From contig NZ_CP071444.1 in assembly GCF_017352215.1 (NCBI RefSeq), positions 496,001 to 560,000 on the forward strand: 64,000 nucleotides of DNA. Reading direction: 5' to 3'. This stretch comes from Alkalibacter rhizosphaerae. Its GTDB lineage: Bacteria > Bacillota > Clostridia > Eubacteriales > Alkalibacteraceae. The notes beneath the pieces are model-generated. The model saw nothing but the letters and a program-made list of their open reading frames with translations. It was not told where the DNA came from and ran no database searches. Shown one piece after another: positions 41,454 through 48,309 of this stretch. Positions within the stretch are counted from its first letter, which is position 1. The number at the start of each line of letters is the position of its first letter. The translations under genes were made by a program, and so were the position numbers.

Positions 41454-41984
41454 TTACACCTTGTTGTACAAAACCAGGGTAAAATAACCCACATTGCCGG
41501 CACCTGCATTATACGTCATTTTCAAATTCATAGACATACGAACCACATCGATGCCGCTTCCCTCCATGGAGTATTCGATCTTTTCCGGAAATCTGCAGGG
41601 TTTCCCTTCCAGTGCGGTACAAGTCTTGCAGACCGTACAAGGGCCGGCACCCATGACCAGGATCTCTTCCCCAGAGACGGCCTTGCGCAGTGCTTTTGTT
41701 CGATTTGCTACCTTTTCCATGGATTCGATCATGTCTTTTCTGGTTTTGATGGGCACGATCATGGAAAGCATGTATCCATTCTTATATTGAAAAACGCGGT
41801 TTTTTCGTTCTTCTTCCGATCCGGCATGGGGCGGACAACCGTGATTCGTTCCAAAGCTGCCGCACGTATTTCTTTCGCACTGGTAAAAGACATCTTTTGA
41901 AATAATGATGTCTTCCGGAACCAGTTCTTTATATTCATCAAACTCCAATTCTTTAAAAATGCTTTCCAAATTTTCCTTATTCAT
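41454..41984 (-). CDS. DUF2284 putative metal-binding protein
   Basis: A 176-residue protein rich in cysteines. The ATG at 41984 follows GGAGG. The cysteine groups are CERNTCGSFGTNHGCPPHAG (about residues 27-46) and CTVCKTCTALEGKPCRFPEK (about 113-132). The spacing is typical of the DUF2284 family and suggests an iron-sulfur or zinc site. Families of this type often sit near redox or corrinoid enzymes in anaerobes, but no partner is clear here. The GIY-YIG gene follows after 4 nt, and the GNAT gene ends 10 nt before its start. Confidence 0.8.
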   Translation of the reverse strand: MNKENLESIFKELEFDEYKELVPEDIIISKDVFYQCERNTCGSFGTNHGCPPHAGSEEERKNRVFQYKNGYMLSMIVPIKTRKDMIESMEKVANRTKALRKAVSGEEILVMGAGPCTVCKTCTALEGKPCRFPEKIEYSMEGSGIDVVRMSMNLKMTYNAGAGNVGYFTLVLYNKV

Positions 41985-41994
41985 ATTGCCTCCG

Positions 41995-42507
41995 TTATTC
42001 TTCATTCCGTATTCTGCTCATGACCATTTCGTCCGCATATCGTCCGTTGCGTATGGCCGCTTTGCGTCGGATCCCTTCGATCTCAAAGCCCATCTTTTGA
42101 TAAAGGTTGATGGCTTTCTCGTTGTCGGAAAACACTTCCAGTTCCAACCGTTTCAACATCAGCCAGTTGTCGGCCAGATCGATGACCGTTTCCAACAACC
42201 TGGTTCCGATCCCCATGCTCTGGTACTCCCGATGCACCATGATCCCCAAAGATCCACAGTGTCTTTTCCGTGGCAGCGGATTGACATGGAGTCCCACAGT
42301 ACCAACCACCATCTCCGTGTTCCGATCCACTTTGACCACTGCAACGAATTGATGCCGCATTGCATCCATTCTGTTCAAATATTCCTGACTATTCTGCACC
42401 GTTTCCGAGGGCAGGCCCAAAATGTTTTCCATGATGCCTTCCATTCGTCGCATGTCGTTGATTTCTTTTGCATCGTTCATTTCTACAGGTCGTATGGTCA
42501 GATCCAT
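41995..42507 (-). CDS. GNAT-family N-acetyltransferase
   Basis: A 170-residue acetyl-CoA-dependent acetyltransferase. The acetyl-CoA loop REYQSMGIGTRLLETVI (about residues 98-114) is clear, preceded by the GTVGLHVNPLPRKRHCGSLGIMV strands and followed by LELEVFSDNEKAINLYQKMGF, typical of RimJ/PhnO-like members. The substrate (protein N-terminus, amine or polyamine) cannot be told from sequence. It starts with a GGAGG site. Confidence 0.85.
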   Translation of the reverse strand: MDLTIRPVEMNDAKEINDMRRMEGIMENILGLPSETVQNSQEYLNRMDAMRHQFVAVVKVDRNTEMVVGTVGLHVNPLPRKRHCGSLGIMVHREYQSMGIGTRLLETVIDLADNWLMLKRLELEVFSDNEKAINLYQKMGFEIEGIRRKAAIRNGRYADEMVMSRIRNEE

Positions 42508-42602
42508 GATTTCTCCTCCTCATAAATTCATCCTGATTTGAGTATAATCCAATTGCTCCTTTGCTTCAAGAAAAAGAAAGCAGTCCCATGGACCGCTTTC
42601 TT

Positions 42603-43832
42603 CTATTTTTTGTTTTCCACTTGAAATGGCCGACCTTCCCAATTTCGCATGACCACCTTGTCTTTTCCCATGTAAAGCAGATAGTTTGGCATGATGGGTG
42701 TTTTCCCCATTCCTTCGCTGCCGTTGACGATATACGTGGGTATGGCCATTCCGGATGTCCGTCCTCGCAACGACTCCATGATCTCCATCCCTTCCTCCAT
42801 GTTGACCCAGAAATGAGATGTTCCCTTAACGGTTTTCGGATGGAAGATGTAATAGGGTTTCACACGGATCTTCAACAACTGTTGGTTCAATTTGCGCACG
42901 ATAAACGGATCGTTGTTGACGCCGTTTAGGAGCACCATCTGGTTGCCCAGTGGAATACCGGCATTGGCCAGCATTTCGCAAGCTTCTTTTGATTCTTCCG
43001 TGATTTCACGCTGGCTGTTGAAATGGGTGTTGACATAGATGGGGTGATATTTCTTTAAAATATTTACCAATTCCGGTGTGATCCGTTGTGGGAGTGTTAC
43101 CGGTGTTCTGGTCCCCAAGCGAATGATCTCCACATGTTCGATCTTTCGCAGTTCTCCCAACAGCCAATCCAGGCTTTGGTCCGACAACATGAAAGCATCG
43201 CCGCCGGTGATGAGCACGTCGCGGATCTTGTCATGGTCTCGCACATATTCGATGGCGTTTACCAGAACTTCTTTGGAAACGTGTACATCGTGTTCTCCGA
43301 TCATTCTTCGTCTCTGGCAGAACCGGCAATACATGCCGCACATGTTTGTAACTTTGATGATCAGTCGATCCGGATATCTTCTTGTGATCCCTTCTACAGG
43401 AGACCAACCGGCTTCATCCATGGGATCCAGCATCCCGGTTTCATCCAGTTCGTCGTGGCATGGCATGGCCTGCTTTCGGATGGGGCAGTTGGGATCATCC
43501 GGATCGATCAATGCCATATAATAGGGCGAAATGGCATATCGAAAAGTCTCCCCCACTTTTTCGATCTGCTTTTTTTCCTCGTCGCTCAATTCGATGATGT
43601 CCCCAATGTCTTCCACCGTTTCAAAGCGATGGGCCATTTGCCATTTATGATCCCGCCATTGCTCTTCCGTTGCTTGAAATTTTTCTAAAATCCGCTTCTT
43701 TTGTCTTTTGATTTTTTCCTTGTCTTCCATGCCCGTTTTTATGGAGCCTTTTACGTTCTCGTATTCCTCTATGCTCGCTTCCAGCTTTTCAAATCTGTTT
43801 TCATCGTAAGAATGCAAGTCTTGAATTTGCAT
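42603..43832 (-). CDS. eam: Radical-SAM glutamate 2,3-aminomutase (KamA family)
   Basis: A 409-residue radical-SAM/PLP aminomutase. The 4Fe-4S site is MCGMYCRFCQRR (about residues 148-159). The PLP lysine is expected in the C-terminal GMGKTPIMPNY segment. Lysine 2,3-aminomutase uses two aspartates to hold the substrate side-chain amine. At those positions this protein has Lys (HPKTVKGTSHF) and Asn (YIVNGSEG), the substitutions reported for Clostridioides glutamate 2,3-aminomutase. It therefore probably converts L-glutamate to beta-glutamate, a compatible solute. A c-di-AMP riboswitch precedes it, supporting an osmotic role. A good AGGAGGG precedes the ATG. Confidence 0.85.
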   Translation of the reverse strand: MQIQDLHSYDENRFEKLEASIEEYENVKGSIKTGMEDKEKIKRQKKRILEKFQATEEQWRDHKWQMAHRFETVEDIGDIIELSDEEKKQIEKVGETFRYAISPYYMALIDPDDPNCPIRKQAMPCHDELDETGMLDPMDEAGWSPVEGITRRYPDRLIIKVTNMCGMYCRFCQRRRMIGEHDVHVSKEVLVNAIEYVRDHDKIRDVLITGGDAFMLSDQSLDWLLGELRKIEHVEIIRLGTRTPVTLPQRITPELVNILKKYHPIYVNTHFNSQREITEESKEACEMLANAGIPLGNQMVLLNGVNNDPFIVRKLNQQLLKIRVKPYYIFHPKTVKGTSHFWVNMEEGMEIMESLRGRTSGMAIPTYIVNGSEGMGKTPIMPNYLLYMGKDKVVMRNWEGRPFQVENKK

Positions 43833-43877
43833 ACGATCCCTCCTGTTTTCAATCTACCATTATTTGTTGCAACAAAT

Positions 43878-43908
43878 AAGCAGTCTAAACCCTGGGGTTC
43901 GACTGCTT
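43878..43908 (-). terminator. Riboswitch expression-platform terminator
   Basis: Stem AAGCAGTC / GACTGCTT, extended by AACCC/GGGTT, followed on the minus strand by ATTTGTT. It lies between the c-di-AMP aptamer and the eam ribosome site. Confidence 0.75.
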
Positions 43909-43944
43909 CGAAGGCATGCAAACAGATATACTCTGATTTCCTTC

Positions 43945-44080
43945 TAAGCTTCCGAGGTTAGCTGACGGATTCGGACCGAAGTTTAGCCCTATCGACTGAT
44001 CGAATTCACCCCATGAATGGTTCCCCCGTATCTTGCAGTGCAAGAATTCAGCATCGTTGCATCAAAGATTCTTTAGCTTA
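43945..44080 (-). ncRNA. c-di-AMP (ydaO/yuaA) riboswitch
   Basis: The minus-strand leader carries the signature blocks of the ydaO aptamer in order: CGGGGGAACC, GGGGTGAAT, TAGGG, then CCGAATCCGTCAGCTAACCT (from about 43973 down) and CGGAAGC. Outer helix P1 forms between TAAGCT (44075-44080) and AGCTTA (43945-43950). These riboswitches sense cyclic di-AMP and usually turn expression off when it binds, here through the terminator at 43878-43908. The controlled gene is eam. Confidence 0.93.
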
Positions 44081-44083
44081 CTA

Positions 44084-44112
44084 ATTATATCAAATTATTC
44101 AAATTATTTCAA
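44084..44112 (-). promoter_or_regulatory. Promoter of the riboswitch-eam transcript
   Basis: On the minus strand, -35 TTGAAA (44107-44112), 17-nt spacer, -10 TATAAT (44084-44089). The start is near 44077, right at the riboswitch P1 helix. Confidence 0.85.
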
Positions 44113-44117
44113 TGAAA

Positions 44118-45719
44118 TCAAACTATGGACCCTACATAAACCAAGATCAGAACAAAAAAACCTGCGATGGTTCCGCACACACCGTTGAAGGACAATTCAA
44201 AAGAATTGAGAATGGCCAAATAATTTCTTTTTCGCAATATGCCAAAATACAGGAGACTTGCCACAACCACCGATCCCAAAAATATAAGGGTCTTCATCCA
44301 GTAGGCCAAAGGGTCCACCACAAAGGTAACATTATATACCTCTTGAATGATGATGCGTCCAAATATCCCGCCAACAAGGCACAAGGATCCCATGACCATG
44401 ACCACTGCTTTTCTTAAAGGATCGCATTTGGCTCGATTCACACCCTTTTCTCCCCCAAAAAGCATGGTTCCATATTTGATAAAGGAAACAATGGTACCCA
44501 GATTGACTAAGATCAGCCCGTATTCCACCCAGCTGCCCGTTGCGCCATAGGACAAGAGGTACTTTGAAATGCTGCCGTTGAACAATGGGGCCCCGGTGAT
44601 CCCCAAAATGGCAAAGAGAGTAGCCATCCCTACGGCGGGCATCTTTCTCATAAGGCCTTTCACTTCATAAACATTTCTGGTGCCGTATTCGTCGATGATC
44701 ATGCCTGCCGTCAGAAAGAGAGCGGTTTTGAACACGGCATGATTCAAAATGTGGTAAACGGCACCCCAGTAGGTGTGGATCCTCCCCATATTCAGCCCCA
44801 TCATGATCAAACCGATCTGGGAGACCGTATGATAGGCCAAAATCAATTTCATATCCTTTTGGGCAATGGCCAATAAGAAACCGATCACCGCCGTGATGAA
44901 TCCCATCAACAAAAAGAAGTCTGATGTGTCCAGTACGGATGAGAACACATCCTGGATCCGAATAAAAAGATACAATCCATTTTTTACATACAATCCGGAA
45001 AGAACCGCCGAAACGATGGATGGAGCACTTGGCGTGCCGTGGGCTTTGGGTAGCCAGCTAAACAAGGGCATCAATGCAGACTTCAAACTGACTGCTGTGA
45101 TAATGAAGGCATAGGGAAGAAGGATCCCTTTTGCAGAGTCCAGCTGGGAAACGGCTAGCTTCAATCCCGTCAGATCGATAACTCCAAGGCGCTTGTAAAG
45201 CATTCCCAAACCAAAGAGGAAAAAGGACATGCCTACAATATTGATCAACAAATACAGCATTCCATCATATATGGACCTGCTGTCTTGCTTGTACATGATC
45301 AGGATGCTGATCACTACCGTAGCAACCTCGACCAAAACAAAAATATTAAAGAGATCATTGGATAGAAAAATACCGGTGATCAGACCTTCCAGTACGGTAA
45401 ATAGAAACAAGAACAACCGATCGCTGTATTTTTTCCGATAATTGAACAAGACGGTCATCAAAAACAGAAACGATGTCAGCCACACCATGGAAGCTGCCAG
45501 CAGGTCGGCCCGCAATGTGATCCCAATAAAGGTCGGCCAATTGCCCACATGTTCTACAATGGTCCCTTCCACCCGGACGCGACTCAATAGAATCGTGGCA
45601 TTCAAAAGCAACACTCCGTGGAGTGCAAGCGTCATTCTTCTTCCTGTTTTTGCCGGGATCAGCATTCCCAAGCTTCCCACTATGACGGGGAAAAGAACCA
45701 ACCAATGCAGATCTACCAT
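44118..45719 (-). CDS. Mrp/Mbh-type antiporter subunit D (MrpD/MbhH-like)
   Basis: A 533-residue ND4/ND5-like membrane subunit with about fourteen helices, the only ion-pumping subunit of this size in the cluster. Conserved features include the early Glu helix LITGIFLSNDLFNIFVLVEVATVVISIL (about residues 110-140), the broken-helix Lys region KSALMPLFSWLPKAHGTPSAPSIVSAVLSG (about 213-242) and LAYHTVSQIGLIMMG. It ends the eight-gene operon, with one nt or less between it and subunit C. Substrate ions are probably sodium and protons, inferred from family. Confidence 0.92.
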   Translation of the reverse strand: MVDLHWLVLFPVIVGSLGMLIPAKTGRRMTLALHGVLLLNATILLSRVRVEGTIVEHVGNWPTFIGITLRADLLAASMVWLTSFLFLMTVLFNYRKKYSDRLFLFLFTVLEGLITGIFLSNDLFNIFVLVEVATVVISILIMYKQDSRSIYDGMLYLLINIVGMSFFLFGLGMLYKRLGVIDLTGLKLAVSQLDSAKGILLPYAFIITAVSLKSALMPLFSWLPKAHGTPSAPSIVSAVLSGLYVKNGLYLFIRIQDVFSSVLDTSDFFLLMGFITAVIGFLLAIAQKDMKLILAYHTVSQIGLIMMGLNMGRIHTYWGAVYHILNHAVFKTALFLTAGMIIDEYGTRNVYEVKGLMRKMPAVGMATLFAILGITGAPLFNGSISKYLLSYGATGSWVEYGLILVNLGTIVSFIKYGTMLFGGEKGVNRAKCDPLRKAVVMVMGSLCLVGGIFGRIIIQEVYNVTFVVDPLAYWMKTLIFLGSVVVASLLYFGILRKRNYLAILNSFELSFNGVCGTIAGFFVLILVYVGSIV

Positions 45720-46076
45720 TTATTTCACCCTTTTTTTCTTCACCTTCATCCAGTTCGTCGAACCATACCGATGATACAAATGAATGAACATGGTAAGTCC
45801 GGCTGCCGTCACACCAACACCGATAACGATGTCCGTGATCATCAAAGCTTGGGGTAGCGGGTCCGCAACCATTGCACCCACAGGCAACTGCCCAATGGGG
45901 GGAATGCTTCCCGGTTCCACATTCGCCGATATGAAATATAAGATCGTCGCCATTTGCATGATGCCGAGGGAAATGATGGACTTGACGATATTTCGTCTTG
46001 CGATCAATCCGTAGACACCCAGAAAAAACAGAAGAATACTGATGTTTTCTCCGTTGATCCAATCCAAAAACTCCAT
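45720..46076 (-). CDS. Mrp/Mbh-type antiporter subunit C (MrpC/MbhG, NuoK-like)
   Basis: A 118-residue membrane protein with three helices. The ATG at 46076 overlaps the subunit B stop by one base (TAATG) and gives MEFLDWINGENISILLFFLGVYG. An upstream extension would be out of family. NuoK-like features are GLIARRNIVKSIISLGIMQ and the late DPLPQALMITDIVIGVGVTAAGL helix. Family length is 110-120. Confidence 0.92.
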   Translation of the reverse strand: MEFLDWINGENISILLFFLGVYGLIARRNIVKSIISLGIMQMATILYFISANVEPGSIPPIGQLPVGAMVADPLPQALMITDIVIGVGVTAAGLTMFIHLYHRYGSTNWMKVKKKRVK

Positions 46077-46465
46077 TATTCTCCTCCTTCGTAAAAGACA
46101 AATCGGTAGAATATGATGGTCAGACCACTGGAAACTTTCAATCCGATCAACAGATTCATGACGACCAGATAGATCGTATTGGCCATAGCGCTGTCGTTGC
46201 CTGTGGATGAAAACAAGAAGAGGGTCGGAATCAGAATGATGCAAAAGAAGAGAACTTTTTCCAAGGTTTGCATATACTTGATTCGAATGCTTTCTTCCGG
46301 AATCACCAGGTATCTGCTGATAAAAGCGGAAGCCAGCACGGCACCGCCTTGAAACCCCCCTCCTGGGCTGACATGACCATTGATGATAATATAAAACCCG
46401 ATCAGGATGATAAAGGGATAGAGCAAACCTGTAACCCTGGCTATGATCTGGGAATTACTCTTCAT
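46076..46465 (-). CDS. Mrp/Mbh-type antiporter subunit B (MrpB/MbhF-like)
   Basis: A 129-residue protein with four helices and the MnhB motif YIIINGHVSPGGGFQGGAVLASA near residue 25. It overlaps the end of the MbhE-like gene by 11 nt and the start of subunit C by one. This places it firmly in the operon. MrpB is a structural subunit next to the MrpA C-terminal part. Confidence 0.92.
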   Translation of the reverse strand: MKSNSQIIARVTGLLYPFIILIGFYIIINGHVSPGGGFQGGAVLASAFISRYLVIPEESIRIKYMQTLEKVLFFCIILIPTLFLFSSTGNDSAMANTIYLVVMNLLIGLKVSSGLTIIFYRFVFYEGGE

Positions 46466-46721
46466 GATCTCGCCTCCAGGAAAAATTGATGACGGCAGTC
46501 ACGCTGACCAACAAAATCAAGGTTTCAAACATGCTGTCGAACATCCGATAATTCAAATAGATGGCTGCCACGGCATTTTGTGCAAAGGTATCTTTTGTGA
46601 AATTGGCAATGTAGTAATCCACAACATAGGGATCTGGCGTCAACGTGGTACCGTTATAAATGAAAAGCACATAAGCTGCCACTGCCAGGCAAAAGATCAT
46701 TGCAAAGGCTCTTCGCATCAT
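46455..46721 (-). CDS. MbhE-like subunit (MrpA C-terminal equivalent)
   Basis: An 88-residue protein with two helices, similar to MbhE or the far C-terminus of MrpA. It starts MMRRAFAMIFCLAVAAYVLF and has the RMFDSMFETLILLVSVTAVI helix. In full Mrp antiporters this part is fused to the end of the large MrpA. Here it is a separate small gene, overlapping the MbhD-like gene by 4 nt and subunit B by 11. Confidence 0.8.
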   Translation of the reverse strand: MMRRAFAMIFCLAVAAYVLFIYNGTTLTPDPYVVDYYIANFTKDTFAQNAVAAIYLNYRMFDSMFETLILLVSVTAVINFSWRRDHEE

Positions 46722-47266
46722 TTTCCACCACCTGCCTCATGTCGTATGAATTTGGAACGCAATGGATCGTATGGTTCCTTTTGTACGTGTTCTTCAAAGG
46801 CATCCACCTGGTAGTCTTCCTTATTCCCGTAAAAATATACTTCATCAAAATCCTGATGGATCAACAGATCAAAATTCCTGTTTTCCAGCACAAATCGATA
46901 GTCGTGGGTGGTGTAGATGATTTGAGGCTCCATCTCTCTCTCCGCAAAAAACTTTTCCACATCCCGCAGTACTTGGGCACGGCCTCTGGTGATCTGACTG
47001 TCCGTGATCTGGTTGTAATTGGCATTGGTGTAATAAATGGTGAACACGTGATATTTTTTTAGTGCGACCAGATACAAAACCGTAGAGATGGCACTTCCGA
47101 TGATCGCTTCCGCAATGGCTACATCCGGCGCTCCATAAAGAAGATAGATAAAAGAACTGGCCAAAGACAGGATCCCCAGATATATGACAGCCCTACGAAG
47201 TTTCGGAGTATTCAGAGACAGCATGGCCAACAAGACCATCAGGATCAAAAACACTTTTTCAACCAC
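46718..47266 (-). CDS. MbhD-like subunit with soluble C-terminal extension (DUF4040)
   Basis: A 182-residue protein. The first 75 residues form three helices with the DUF4040 pattern LYGAPDVAIAEAIIGSAISTVLYLVAL, equivalent to MbhD. The following 105 residues are hydrophilic and probably cytoplasmic. They have no family I recognise, and simple MbhD proteins lack them. The MbhE-like gene starts within its stop codon (4-nt overlap). Confidence 0.8.
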   Translation of the reverse strand: MVEKVFLILMVLLAMLSLNTPKLRRAVIYLGILSLASSFIYLLYGAPDVAIAEAIIGSAISTVLYLVALKKYHVFTIYYTNANYNQITDSQITRGRAQVLRDVEKFFAEREMEPQIIYTTHDYRFVLENRNFDLLIHQDFDEVYFYGNKEDYQVDAFEEHVQKEPYDPLRSKFIRHEAGGGK

Positions 47267-47567
47267 GATCCTTCTTCTCCCTTCCTGTTTTATACCCGCT
47301 GATATAGGCAGAACGAGCTACCGCATGGGTGGATAGGGGATTGGTGATGATCGCCATCAGTCCGATCAGCAAGATCTTCAACGTAGAATAATCCCATCCG
47401 GTCCGAAGCATCATCCCAAGCAACATGGTGATAAATCCCACCGTTTCCACCTTGGAAGAGATCAGGATCCTGGAATAGAAATCATCAAAACGAAATATTC
47501 CGATGATGCCGAATGCCATAAAAAACAAGGCTACGGCGATCATGACATTTGACAGTATCAGCAACAT
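47259..47567 (-). CDS. Mrp/Mbh-type antiporter subunit G (MrpG/MbhC-like)
   Basis: A 102-residue protein with three helices. The ATG at 47567 (MLLILSNVMIAVALFFMAFG) overlaps the subunit F stop by one base. The MnhG motif GIIGIFRFDDFYSRILISSKVETVG near residue 22 is clear, as is the NPLSTHAVARSAY segment near residue 83. It overlaps the MbhD-like start by 8 nt. Confidence 0.92.
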   Translation of the reverse strand: MLLILSNVMIAVALFFMAFGIIGIFRFDDFYSRILISSKVETVGFITMLLGMMLRTGWDYSTLKILLIGLMAIITNPLSTHAVARSAYISGYKTGREKKDRG

Positions 47568-47827
47568 CAGATCTTCCCTTTCCTTTCCACAAAACGAGCG
47601 ATCAAAACAGTACCTATAAATCCCAGTACGGAATATACCAACGCGATGTCCAATAAATAGCTCCGCTCCGTCAATACCGCCAACACAATGATGGAGATGA
47701 TGATTTTTGCCGTGATCATATTGAGGCCCAACAGGCGATCCCAAATGGTTGGTCCCATGATCACCCGGATCAGAACCAAAAAAATGTACACGGAAATGAC
47801 CAGCAGTGTACTGTTTAAAGTAGTCAT
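47567..47827 (-). CDS. Mrp/Mbh-type antiporter subunit F (MrpF/MbhB-like)
   Basis: An 86-residue protein with three helices. The ATG at 47827 is inside the subunit E stop (4-nt overlap). A longer reading frame is only an overlap with subunit E. The MnhF block LIRVIMGPTIWDRLLGLNMITAK and the LDIALVYSVLGFIGTVLIARF helix are typical. Length matches the family (80-95). Confidence 0.92.
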   Translation of the reverse strand: MTTLNSTLLVISVYIFLVLIRVIMGPTIWDRLLGLNMITAKIIISIIVLAVLTERSYLLDIALVYSVLGFIGTVLIARFVERKGKI

Positions 47828-48309
47828 CGTCTCAGTCCTCTTAAGATCTTCTCGAACTCCTGAAATACGGAAACATCCATCTTCTCCATTTCCGGTGCTA
47901 CAAAAGCCAATATTTTCAATCGTTTGTCCTTCTTGTTCGCCGTTACAGTACCTGGTGTCAGGGTGATGGAATTTGCCAAAAGACAAACAGCCAGATCGTC
48001 ATCCAGATCCGATTCAAAATCGAAGATGTGGACTTCATATTTTCGGTGCAGAACGATTTTGATTGCAGAAAGCCCGGATTTGTAGATTTGAAAAATCAGG
48101 AAGAAAAGATATTTGACAAGAATAAAGGGTTTTAGGGAGTATTCGTCAGCATAATGTTTTTCCAAAAGAAAAAAGTCGGTCAAAAACAACGCAATCGCAG
48201 AAAACACCACTCCGGACAACATCACTCCCGCATCGGCTTTCTCGTTGAGTATGACCCACATTATGGTAAAAACCAGGATTAACATCCAATACCGTTTAAA
48301 TACATTCAT
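47824..48309 (-). CDS. Mrp/Mbh-type antiporter subunit E (MrpE/MbhA-like)
   Basis: A 161-residue protein with an N-terminal membrane pair and the MnhE pattern SGLSAIKIVLHRKYEVHIFDFESDLDDDLAVCLLANSITLTPGTVT near residues 85-125. First gene of the operon, which continues F-G-MbhD-MbhE-B-C-D with each junction overlapping or adjacent. A promoter TTGACA-N16-TATAAA lies at 48400-48427. Confidence 0.92.
   Translation of the reverse strand: MNVFKRYWMLILVFTIMWVILNEKADAGVMLSGVVFSAIALFLTDFFLLEKHYADEYSLKPFILVKYLFFLIFQIYKSGLSAIKIVLHRKYEVHIFDFESDLDDDLAVCLLANSITLTPGTVTANKKDKRLKILAFVAPEMEKMDVSVFQEFEKILRGLRR

Follow-up and report, generated by a model that had tools for sequence, protein, structure and literature searches.

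A c-di-AMP riboswitch ahead of a glutamate 2,3-aminomutase-type gene in Alkalibacter rhizosphaerae and its clostridial relatives: a predicted control of β-glutamate synthesis

Known c-di-AMP riboswitches and the organization of the locus

Riboswitches of the ydaO class are usually found ahead of osmotic-shock and cell-wall genes, as summarized in the sections of White et al. 2022 considered here (PMC9337991). According to the same sections, c-di-AMP causes transcription termination in vitro ahead of the ablA gene of Dehalobacter sp. CF, where it acts through a tandem Na+/c-di-AMP riboswitch; a tandem of this type is also described at dapB, and eam, the gene for β-glutamate formation, is named as a target of Na+ riboswitches. 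For ablA, a c-di-AMP riboswitch acting on osmolyte synthesis is therefore already in the literature, and the novelty that an earlier note on this DNA had seen in a biosynthetic rather than a transport target is forestalled by the ablA and dapB cases (PMC9337991, in the sections named). The surprise of the present locus is limited for the same reason, since such riboswitches have been published for the lysine branch. None of those sections mentions a c-di-AMP riboswitch in front of eam and, as far as literature searches show, the pairing of this aptamer with eam gives a known riboswitch class a new and widely conserved target.

PMC1224877, in the part considered, describes β-glutamate as a compatible solute that forms a static osmolyte pool in methanogens, and reports that early NMR work excluded an aminomutase route to it in these organisms. 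In Moorella, a glutamate 2,3-aminomutase gene is induced by blue light, and an osmoprotective role has been suggested for it (PMC7835215, in the part seen).

The locus lies in the 64,000-nucleotide stretch of Alkalibacter rhizosphaerae DNA analysed here, which we call the window. It comprises the following elements, given in the direction of transcription:

44118–45719, minus strand: Mrp/NuoM-type antiporter subunit D-like gene, upstream of eam (PF00361)
44084–44112, minus strand: sigma-70-type promoter, TTGAAA-17 nt-TATAAT, with 11 of 12 consensus matches and a TG before the second hexamer
43932–44063, minus strand: c-di-AMP (ydaO/yuaA) riboswitch aptamer, RF00379, by covariance-model match
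43940–43949, minus strand: GCTTAGAAGG, the 3′ side of P1 and proposed 5′ arm of an antiterminator, by predicted pairing
43898–43914, minus strand: proposed 3′ arm of the antiterminator, predicted to overlap the 5′ arm of the terminator
43871–43907, minus strand: intrinsic terminator, a hairpin (43907–43879) with a T-rich tail, TTATTTGTT, to 43871
43838–43844, minus strand: Shine-Dalgarno sequence AGGAGGG, 5 nt before the ATG of eam
42603–43832, minus strand: eam-type gene for a KamA-family radical SAM aminomutase of 409 aa, by profile matches and Lys333/Asn370
42573–42603, minus strand: terminator-like hairpin at the eam stop codon (60-nt region at −22.6 kcal/mol, T-rich 3′ side)

The earlier note had read a near-consensus promoter, all ydaO-type sequence blocks, a P1 helix and a terminator directly ahead of a KamA-family gene from the range 42603–44112, and each of these was recovered there, everything on the minus strand. 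The aptamer matches RF00379 over its full length (model positions 1–134 of 134). Its score of 90.4 bits, where the gathering score is 38, places it in the family (E 7.2e-20 over the whole 64 kb), and its P1 helix contains one non-standard pair in the Rfam alignment. The aptamer is followed by an expression platform, the terminator at 43907–43871, and stands about 100 nt from the gene. As regards the promoter, the region contains five promoter-like sites versus 2.9 expected, so that a match taken alone would weigh little; the remaining four, however, reach only 9 of 12 matches. The 45-nt segment up to the end of the terminator hairpin folds at −16.0 kcal/mol. A simple consensus scan for terminators listed neither this hairpin nor the one at the stop codon of eam; a bulge in the stem is perhaps the reason why the leader hairpin was missed. 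On the 3′ side of P1, GCTTAGAAGG (43949–43940) is predicted to pair with CCTTCGAAGC at 43914–43905, reaching the 5′ arm of the terminator, in a duplex of −11.7 kcal/mol, a value as low being reached by 4% of 300 simple shuffles.

The leader shares with the ydaO/yuaA class a full-length match to the model and differs in the gene that it would control. The closest described switch is that of Dehalobacter sp. CF ablA (PMC9337991, as far as seen), in which a c-di-AMP aptamer and then a terminator likewise precede an aminomutase for the precursor of a β-amino-acid osmolyte; there, however, the gene is called lysine 2,3-aminomutase and the switch begins with a Na+ aptamer, whereas the window has an EAM-type (glutamate 2,3-aminomutase) enzyme behind a c-di-AMP aptamer alone.

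From this arrangement of aptamer, terminator and gene, an OFF switch can be inferred. With enough K+ and turgor, high c-di-AMP would hold the aptamer in the ligand-bound conformation, so that the hairpin behind it would form and transcription would end before eam. A drop in c-di-AMP, for example under hyperosmotic stress, would free the 3′ side of the aptamer to base-pair with the terminator's 5′ arm, leading to read-through and to an enzyme that would turn L-glutamate into β-glutamate, a poorly metabolized anionic compatible solute that would balance K+. We hold it to be highly probable that a transcription-terminating c-di-AMP OFF riboswitch controls a glutamate 2,3-aminomutase-type enzyme in this way, β-glutamate being made when c-di-AMP is low.

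The flanking genes bear on how eam is transcribed. The terminator-like hairpin at its stop codon makes eam likely to be monocistronic in the window. Upstream, only 5 nt separate the end of the Mrp-like open reading frame (44118) from the −35 box of the eam promoter; among NCBIfam models its product fits Na+/H+ antiporter subunit D best, without reaching the curated cut-off. This frame is the last gene of a Mrp-like Na+/H+ antiporter cluster (44118–48309, minus strand), in which it was searched with profiles and the others were read from the letters. Homologous Mrp-like frames also precede eam in two other loci, L004 and, with two such frames, L005; in both, a homologue of the last gene is the immediate upstream neighbour of eam. 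Behind the hairpin, a GNAT gene (42507–41995) and a DUF2284 gene occupy 41454–42507 of the minus strand; both recur in L004, at 68% and 70% identity, and the GNAT gene recurs in L005 at 74%. Among 38 other loci, the GNAT gene lies downstream of eam only in L004, L005 and L120, the last being the L005 locus itself. A role of this gene as a β-glutamate acetyltransferase, by likeness to AblB, was considered and set aside, given its position behind the hairpin, NCBIfam matches below the cut-offs and this narrow distribution.

The aminomutase and its probable substrate

The product of eam contains the Pfam domains Radical_SAM and LAM_C. Its best-fitting model is that of glutamate 2,3-aminomutase (TIGR04368), at 635.1 bits and thus 15 bits short of the equivalog cut-off of 650, ahead of lysine 2,3-aminomutase (TIGR03820) by 160 bits (475.6 against a cut-off of 525.4) and of the arginine 2,3-aminomutase model at 361.5 bits. 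The earlier note had placed Lys and Asn at the two positions that are Asp in lysine 2,3-aminomutase, and the alignment bears this out, with Lys333 and Asn370 standing at chain positions 293 and 330 of 2A5H, that is, at Asp293 and Asp330 of the lysine enzyme. This exchange was reportedly described by Ruzicka and Frey in 2007 as the mark of glutamate 2,3-aminomutase. The sequence CGMYCRFC fits the CxxxCxxC motif of radical SAM enzymes, and the PLP lysine is represented by the Lys in GKTP, which aligns with chain position 337 of 2A5H. The enzyme thus has the functional signature of an EAM without formal membership of the family. A lysine 2,3-aminomutase was rejected, the residues being Lys/Asn rather than Asp/Asp and the score lying below the TIGR03820 cut-off. 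The closest named relative, with 85% identity, is the enzyme of Alkalibacter mobilis, to which the protein of a further genome of the same genus (G140) is identical over the part compared.

A survey of 391 Clostridia genomes, in which at most four candidates per genome with E up to 1e-120 were scored, contains at least 41 EAM-type genes with 608 bits or more against TIGR04368, the next score being 522. Lys/Asn is kept in all 41, and the residue that follows the Asn divides them into an NG type, which includes the motif of the window gene (n = 21), and an NA/NS type (n = 20). Every one of the NG-type genes scores below the cut-off of 650, at 608–639 bits; the window enzyme shares Lys/Asn, Radical_SAM and LAM_C with the glutamate 2,3-aminomutase of TIGR04368 but belongs to a separate, sub-cut-off group.

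These scores leave room for an enzyme of the NG type that acts on another substrate, converting for instance glutamine to β-glutamine or using another acidic amino acid, in which case the riboswitch would be as described and the osmolyte would not be β-glutamate. We know of no characterized member of the type. The characterized glutamate 2,3-aminomutase of C. difficile presumably belongs to the NA/NS type, and the substrate assignment of the NG type accordingly rests on two residues and family likeness. We nonetheless regard a different substrate as unlikely, since the Lys/Asn pair at the two substrate-contact positions is invariant across the 41 genes, scores with the lysine and arginine models are much lower (476 and 362 bits) and a Re-citrate-synthase-like neighbour, found in seven of 30 loci, points to a glutamate route. 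Judged by signature and family, the eam product would therefore convert L-glutamate to β-glutamate. A KamA-family gene outside this pattern was seen in one relative (L031, 4001–5182), with Lys/Thr instead of Lys/Asn or Asp/Asp and perhaps a different substrate.

Conservation of the pairing and of its expression platform

In the survey, RF00379 was counted as upstream when it lay on the same strand and no more than about 520 nt separated its end from the point where the gene match starts, under stricter filters that can lose weak matches. It precedes 15 of the 41 EAM-type genes, namely 15 of the 21 NG-type genes versus none of the 20 of the NA/NS type (Fisher p 1.1e-6, in a test that ignores relatedness). 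The NG-type genes without it are those of G193, G149, G322, G253, G120 and G347. A cmscan search likewise gave no RF00379 match for any of the 20 NA/NS loci or of the six NG loci that lacked a survey match, one of the scanned loci (L102) offering 627 nt before the gene, less than the reach of the farthest aptamer, which begins 730 nt before the match (G312).

A second set was assembled from named relatives by likeness to the window gene, with 80 loci kept of 198; it overlaps the 391-genome set in 11 identical proteins. Its loci L004–L027 are of the EAM type, with Lys/Asn seen in 23 and L026 cut by the end of a contig. RF00379 is upstream in 16 of these 24, among them those of Alkalibacter mobilis, Thermoclostridium caenicola, Clostridium thermopalmarium and Carboxydothermus islandicus; in L016 and L022, with about 30 and 85 nt of upstream sequence, its absence carries no information. 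Seven of the 56 non-EAM named loci (L028–L083) were scanned for riboswitches and none was found.

The split between motifs is imperfect, as Carboxydothermus islandicus (L023) has the NA motif and yet carries the riboswitch. In the tree its long branch adjoins the NG group, whose 27 rows form one group (100/98), and the riboswitch is retained in 22 of the 28 rows made up of these 27 and L023. Left out of the tree were L026 for the contig end, L103 for an in-frame stop, L129, which is the L094 gene, L016, L022 and the 11 identical proteins. The stop in L103 (G285) is a TAG within the eam gene, in an assembly that is 86% complete. Group II intron matches (RF00029) occur upstream of the riboswitch-eam unit in L012 (3119–3191) and L023 (47–117). 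In L111, L119 and L026, an eam gene that lacks the riboswitch is preceded by an open reading frame of one cluster; in L026 this frame exceeds the cut-off of the model for PdxR, a MocR-like regulator, and it is possibly a replacement control.

The expression platform recurs together with the aptamer. A hairpin with a T-rich tail lies 41–68 nt past the aptamer in 15 of 18 leaders, that of the window included; L010 has its hairpin at +115, L006 has candidates only at +227 and +324, and in L018 no hairpin with a T-rich tail was found at the threshold used. The antiterminator stays a prediction, because its duplex was at or below 10% of simple letter shuffles in three of 15 loci. Since the pairing of riboswitch and eam recurs in many relatives, c-di-AMP probably shuts off β-glutamate synthesis when the solute is not needed. 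The earlier note's central claim, repression of an EAM by c-di-AMP, thus keeps the riboswitch class, the signature residues, the OFF-type layout and the pairing in 15 of 21 genes, which make it a probable reading of the sequence, although the protein misses the TIGR04368 cut-off; the part of the note that did not hold is the implied novelty of a biosynthetic target.

Examples of the lysine branch are also present in the survey. In G278, RF00379 is followed by a lysine-type ablA with a GNAT gene behind it; in G330 the order is RF00379, dapB, ablA, GNAT gene. Their ablA enzymes have the Asp/Asp signature, in contrast to the Lys/Asn of the window eam behind the same riboswitch class. By score, the 41 genomes with an EAM contain at least 18 lysine-type rows, and the riboswitch is upstream in two, directly in G278 and with dapB between in G330. 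A possible further case of the lysine branch is found at G318:C8:37335-37463, where RF00379 is followed, after about 200 nt, by an aminomutase match with a lysine-type score.

Gene neighbours, the c-di-AMP regulon and the use of β-glutamate

A gene of the isopropylmalate/homocitrate synthase superfamily adjoins eam in seven of the 30 loci examined, following it in L008, L009, L010, L015, L017 and L019; in L014 it separates eam from the riboswitch, which is present in all seven loci. NCBIfam gave no above-cut-off name to the four copies tested. In the window no such gene stands beside eam, and the homologue elsewhere in its genome, 57% identical, adjoins aconitase. Re-citrate synthases are kin to homocitrate and isopropylmalate synthases and have been misannotated as these, and many Clostridiales are expected by the authors of PMC12016533, in the part of it considered, to need glutamate without a citrate synthase. 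These points, with the aconitase neighbour, suggest that the superfamily gene encodes a Re-citrate synthase. In several relatives, then, the riboswitch also precedes a Re-citrate-synthase-like gene, which would supply 2-oxoglutarate and glutamate.

The same neighbourhoods contain genes of another kind. About 350 nt past the Re-citrate-synthase-like gene and on the same strand, an MreB-like gene is found in L008 (6960–7835), L009 (6946–7821) and L019 (3585–4460), the L008 copy scoring 409 bits with TIGR00904 against a cut-off of 365.75. L008, L010 and L019 share a further-downstream open reading frame of one cluster, whose L008 copy is a weak match, below the cut-off, to an acyl-CoA dehydratase activase. 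L008, L009, L010 and L019 are near neighbours in the tree.

The remaining riboswitches of the genome point to osmoregulation. RF00379 occurs three times, the eam leader included; the two others lie 1.3 kb apart, each ahead of one ehuB gene of an ehu ectoine-uptake cluster in which ehuA-D all exceed their curated cut-offs and which trkH- and trkA-like genes adjoin. One protein with a diadenylate cyclase domain was found in the genome. Ectoine import and the EAM thus appear to stand under one shared signal. In this cluster (L115, 7554–12240), one ehuCDA set stands behind the two riboswitch-ehuB units, a duplicated unit of riboswitch and binding protein. With respect to sodium, no Na+ aptamer (RF03071) reached the gathering score in the window, where the leader is thus no tandem Na+/c-di-AMP riboswitch, and none was found in the genome among the 104 of 497 first-look candidates that were scored. 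Among the 41 EAM genomes, G261 is the sole case of a Na+ riboswitch in tandem with RF00379 ahead of eam.

It is on these observations that a non-osmotic use of β-glutamate has to be weighed, in which it would serve as a building block of the cell wall or of secondary metabolites, or be catabolized, with c-di-AMP control reflecting cell-wall or K+ homeostasis. Cell-wall genes are indeed under c-di-AMP riboswitches too (PMC9337991, in the sections seen), the MreB-like gene behind the Re-citrate-synthase-like gene in L008, L009 and L019 lends some weight to a link with cell shape, and the activase-like frame, weak as its match is, lies downstream in L008, L010 and L019. Yet the two other riboswitches of the genome precede ectoine uptake, G261 combines the aptamer with a Na+ riboswitch, and 27 of the 30 loci showed no MreB-like gene next to eam, although several of these end within 1.5 kb. 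We consider such a use improbable, somewhat more so than a different substrate; an account in terms of osmolytes only is nevertheless incomplete, because the MreB-like gene in the three loci stays unexplained. That the pairing is due to chance or hitch-hiking, with a degenerate riboswitch or with eam read mainly from the upstream Mrp-like cluster, is very improbable: the 5 nt between that frame and the eam promoter on the same strand would permit read-through, but such transcripts would still cross the aptamer and the terminator, the aptamer is full-length and high-scoring, and the riboswitch is kept in 22 of 28 rows of the tree group.

If a c-di-AMP OFF riboswitch does govern the aminomutase as proposed, glutamate 2,3-aminomutase would gain a testable bacterial role, osmolyte synthesis under turgor control, and the reach of c-di-AMP riboswitches would extend from the import of solutes to a route of synthesis that may begin at citrate synthase. 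The pairing would predict which anaerobes make β-glutamate, and in the genome of the window ectoine import and β-glutamate synthesis would answer to one signal. A broader reading, for which we see even chances, is that in a wide range of anaerobic Firmicutes c-di-AMP directly commands a dedicated de novo synthesis of β-glutamate as the main home-made osmolyte, a single riboswitch gating Re-citrate synthase and EAM in step with ectoine import. Were it to hold, RNA alone would carry turgor sensing into central carbon metabolism, and a so far orphan group of EAM enzymes would acquire a physiological role.
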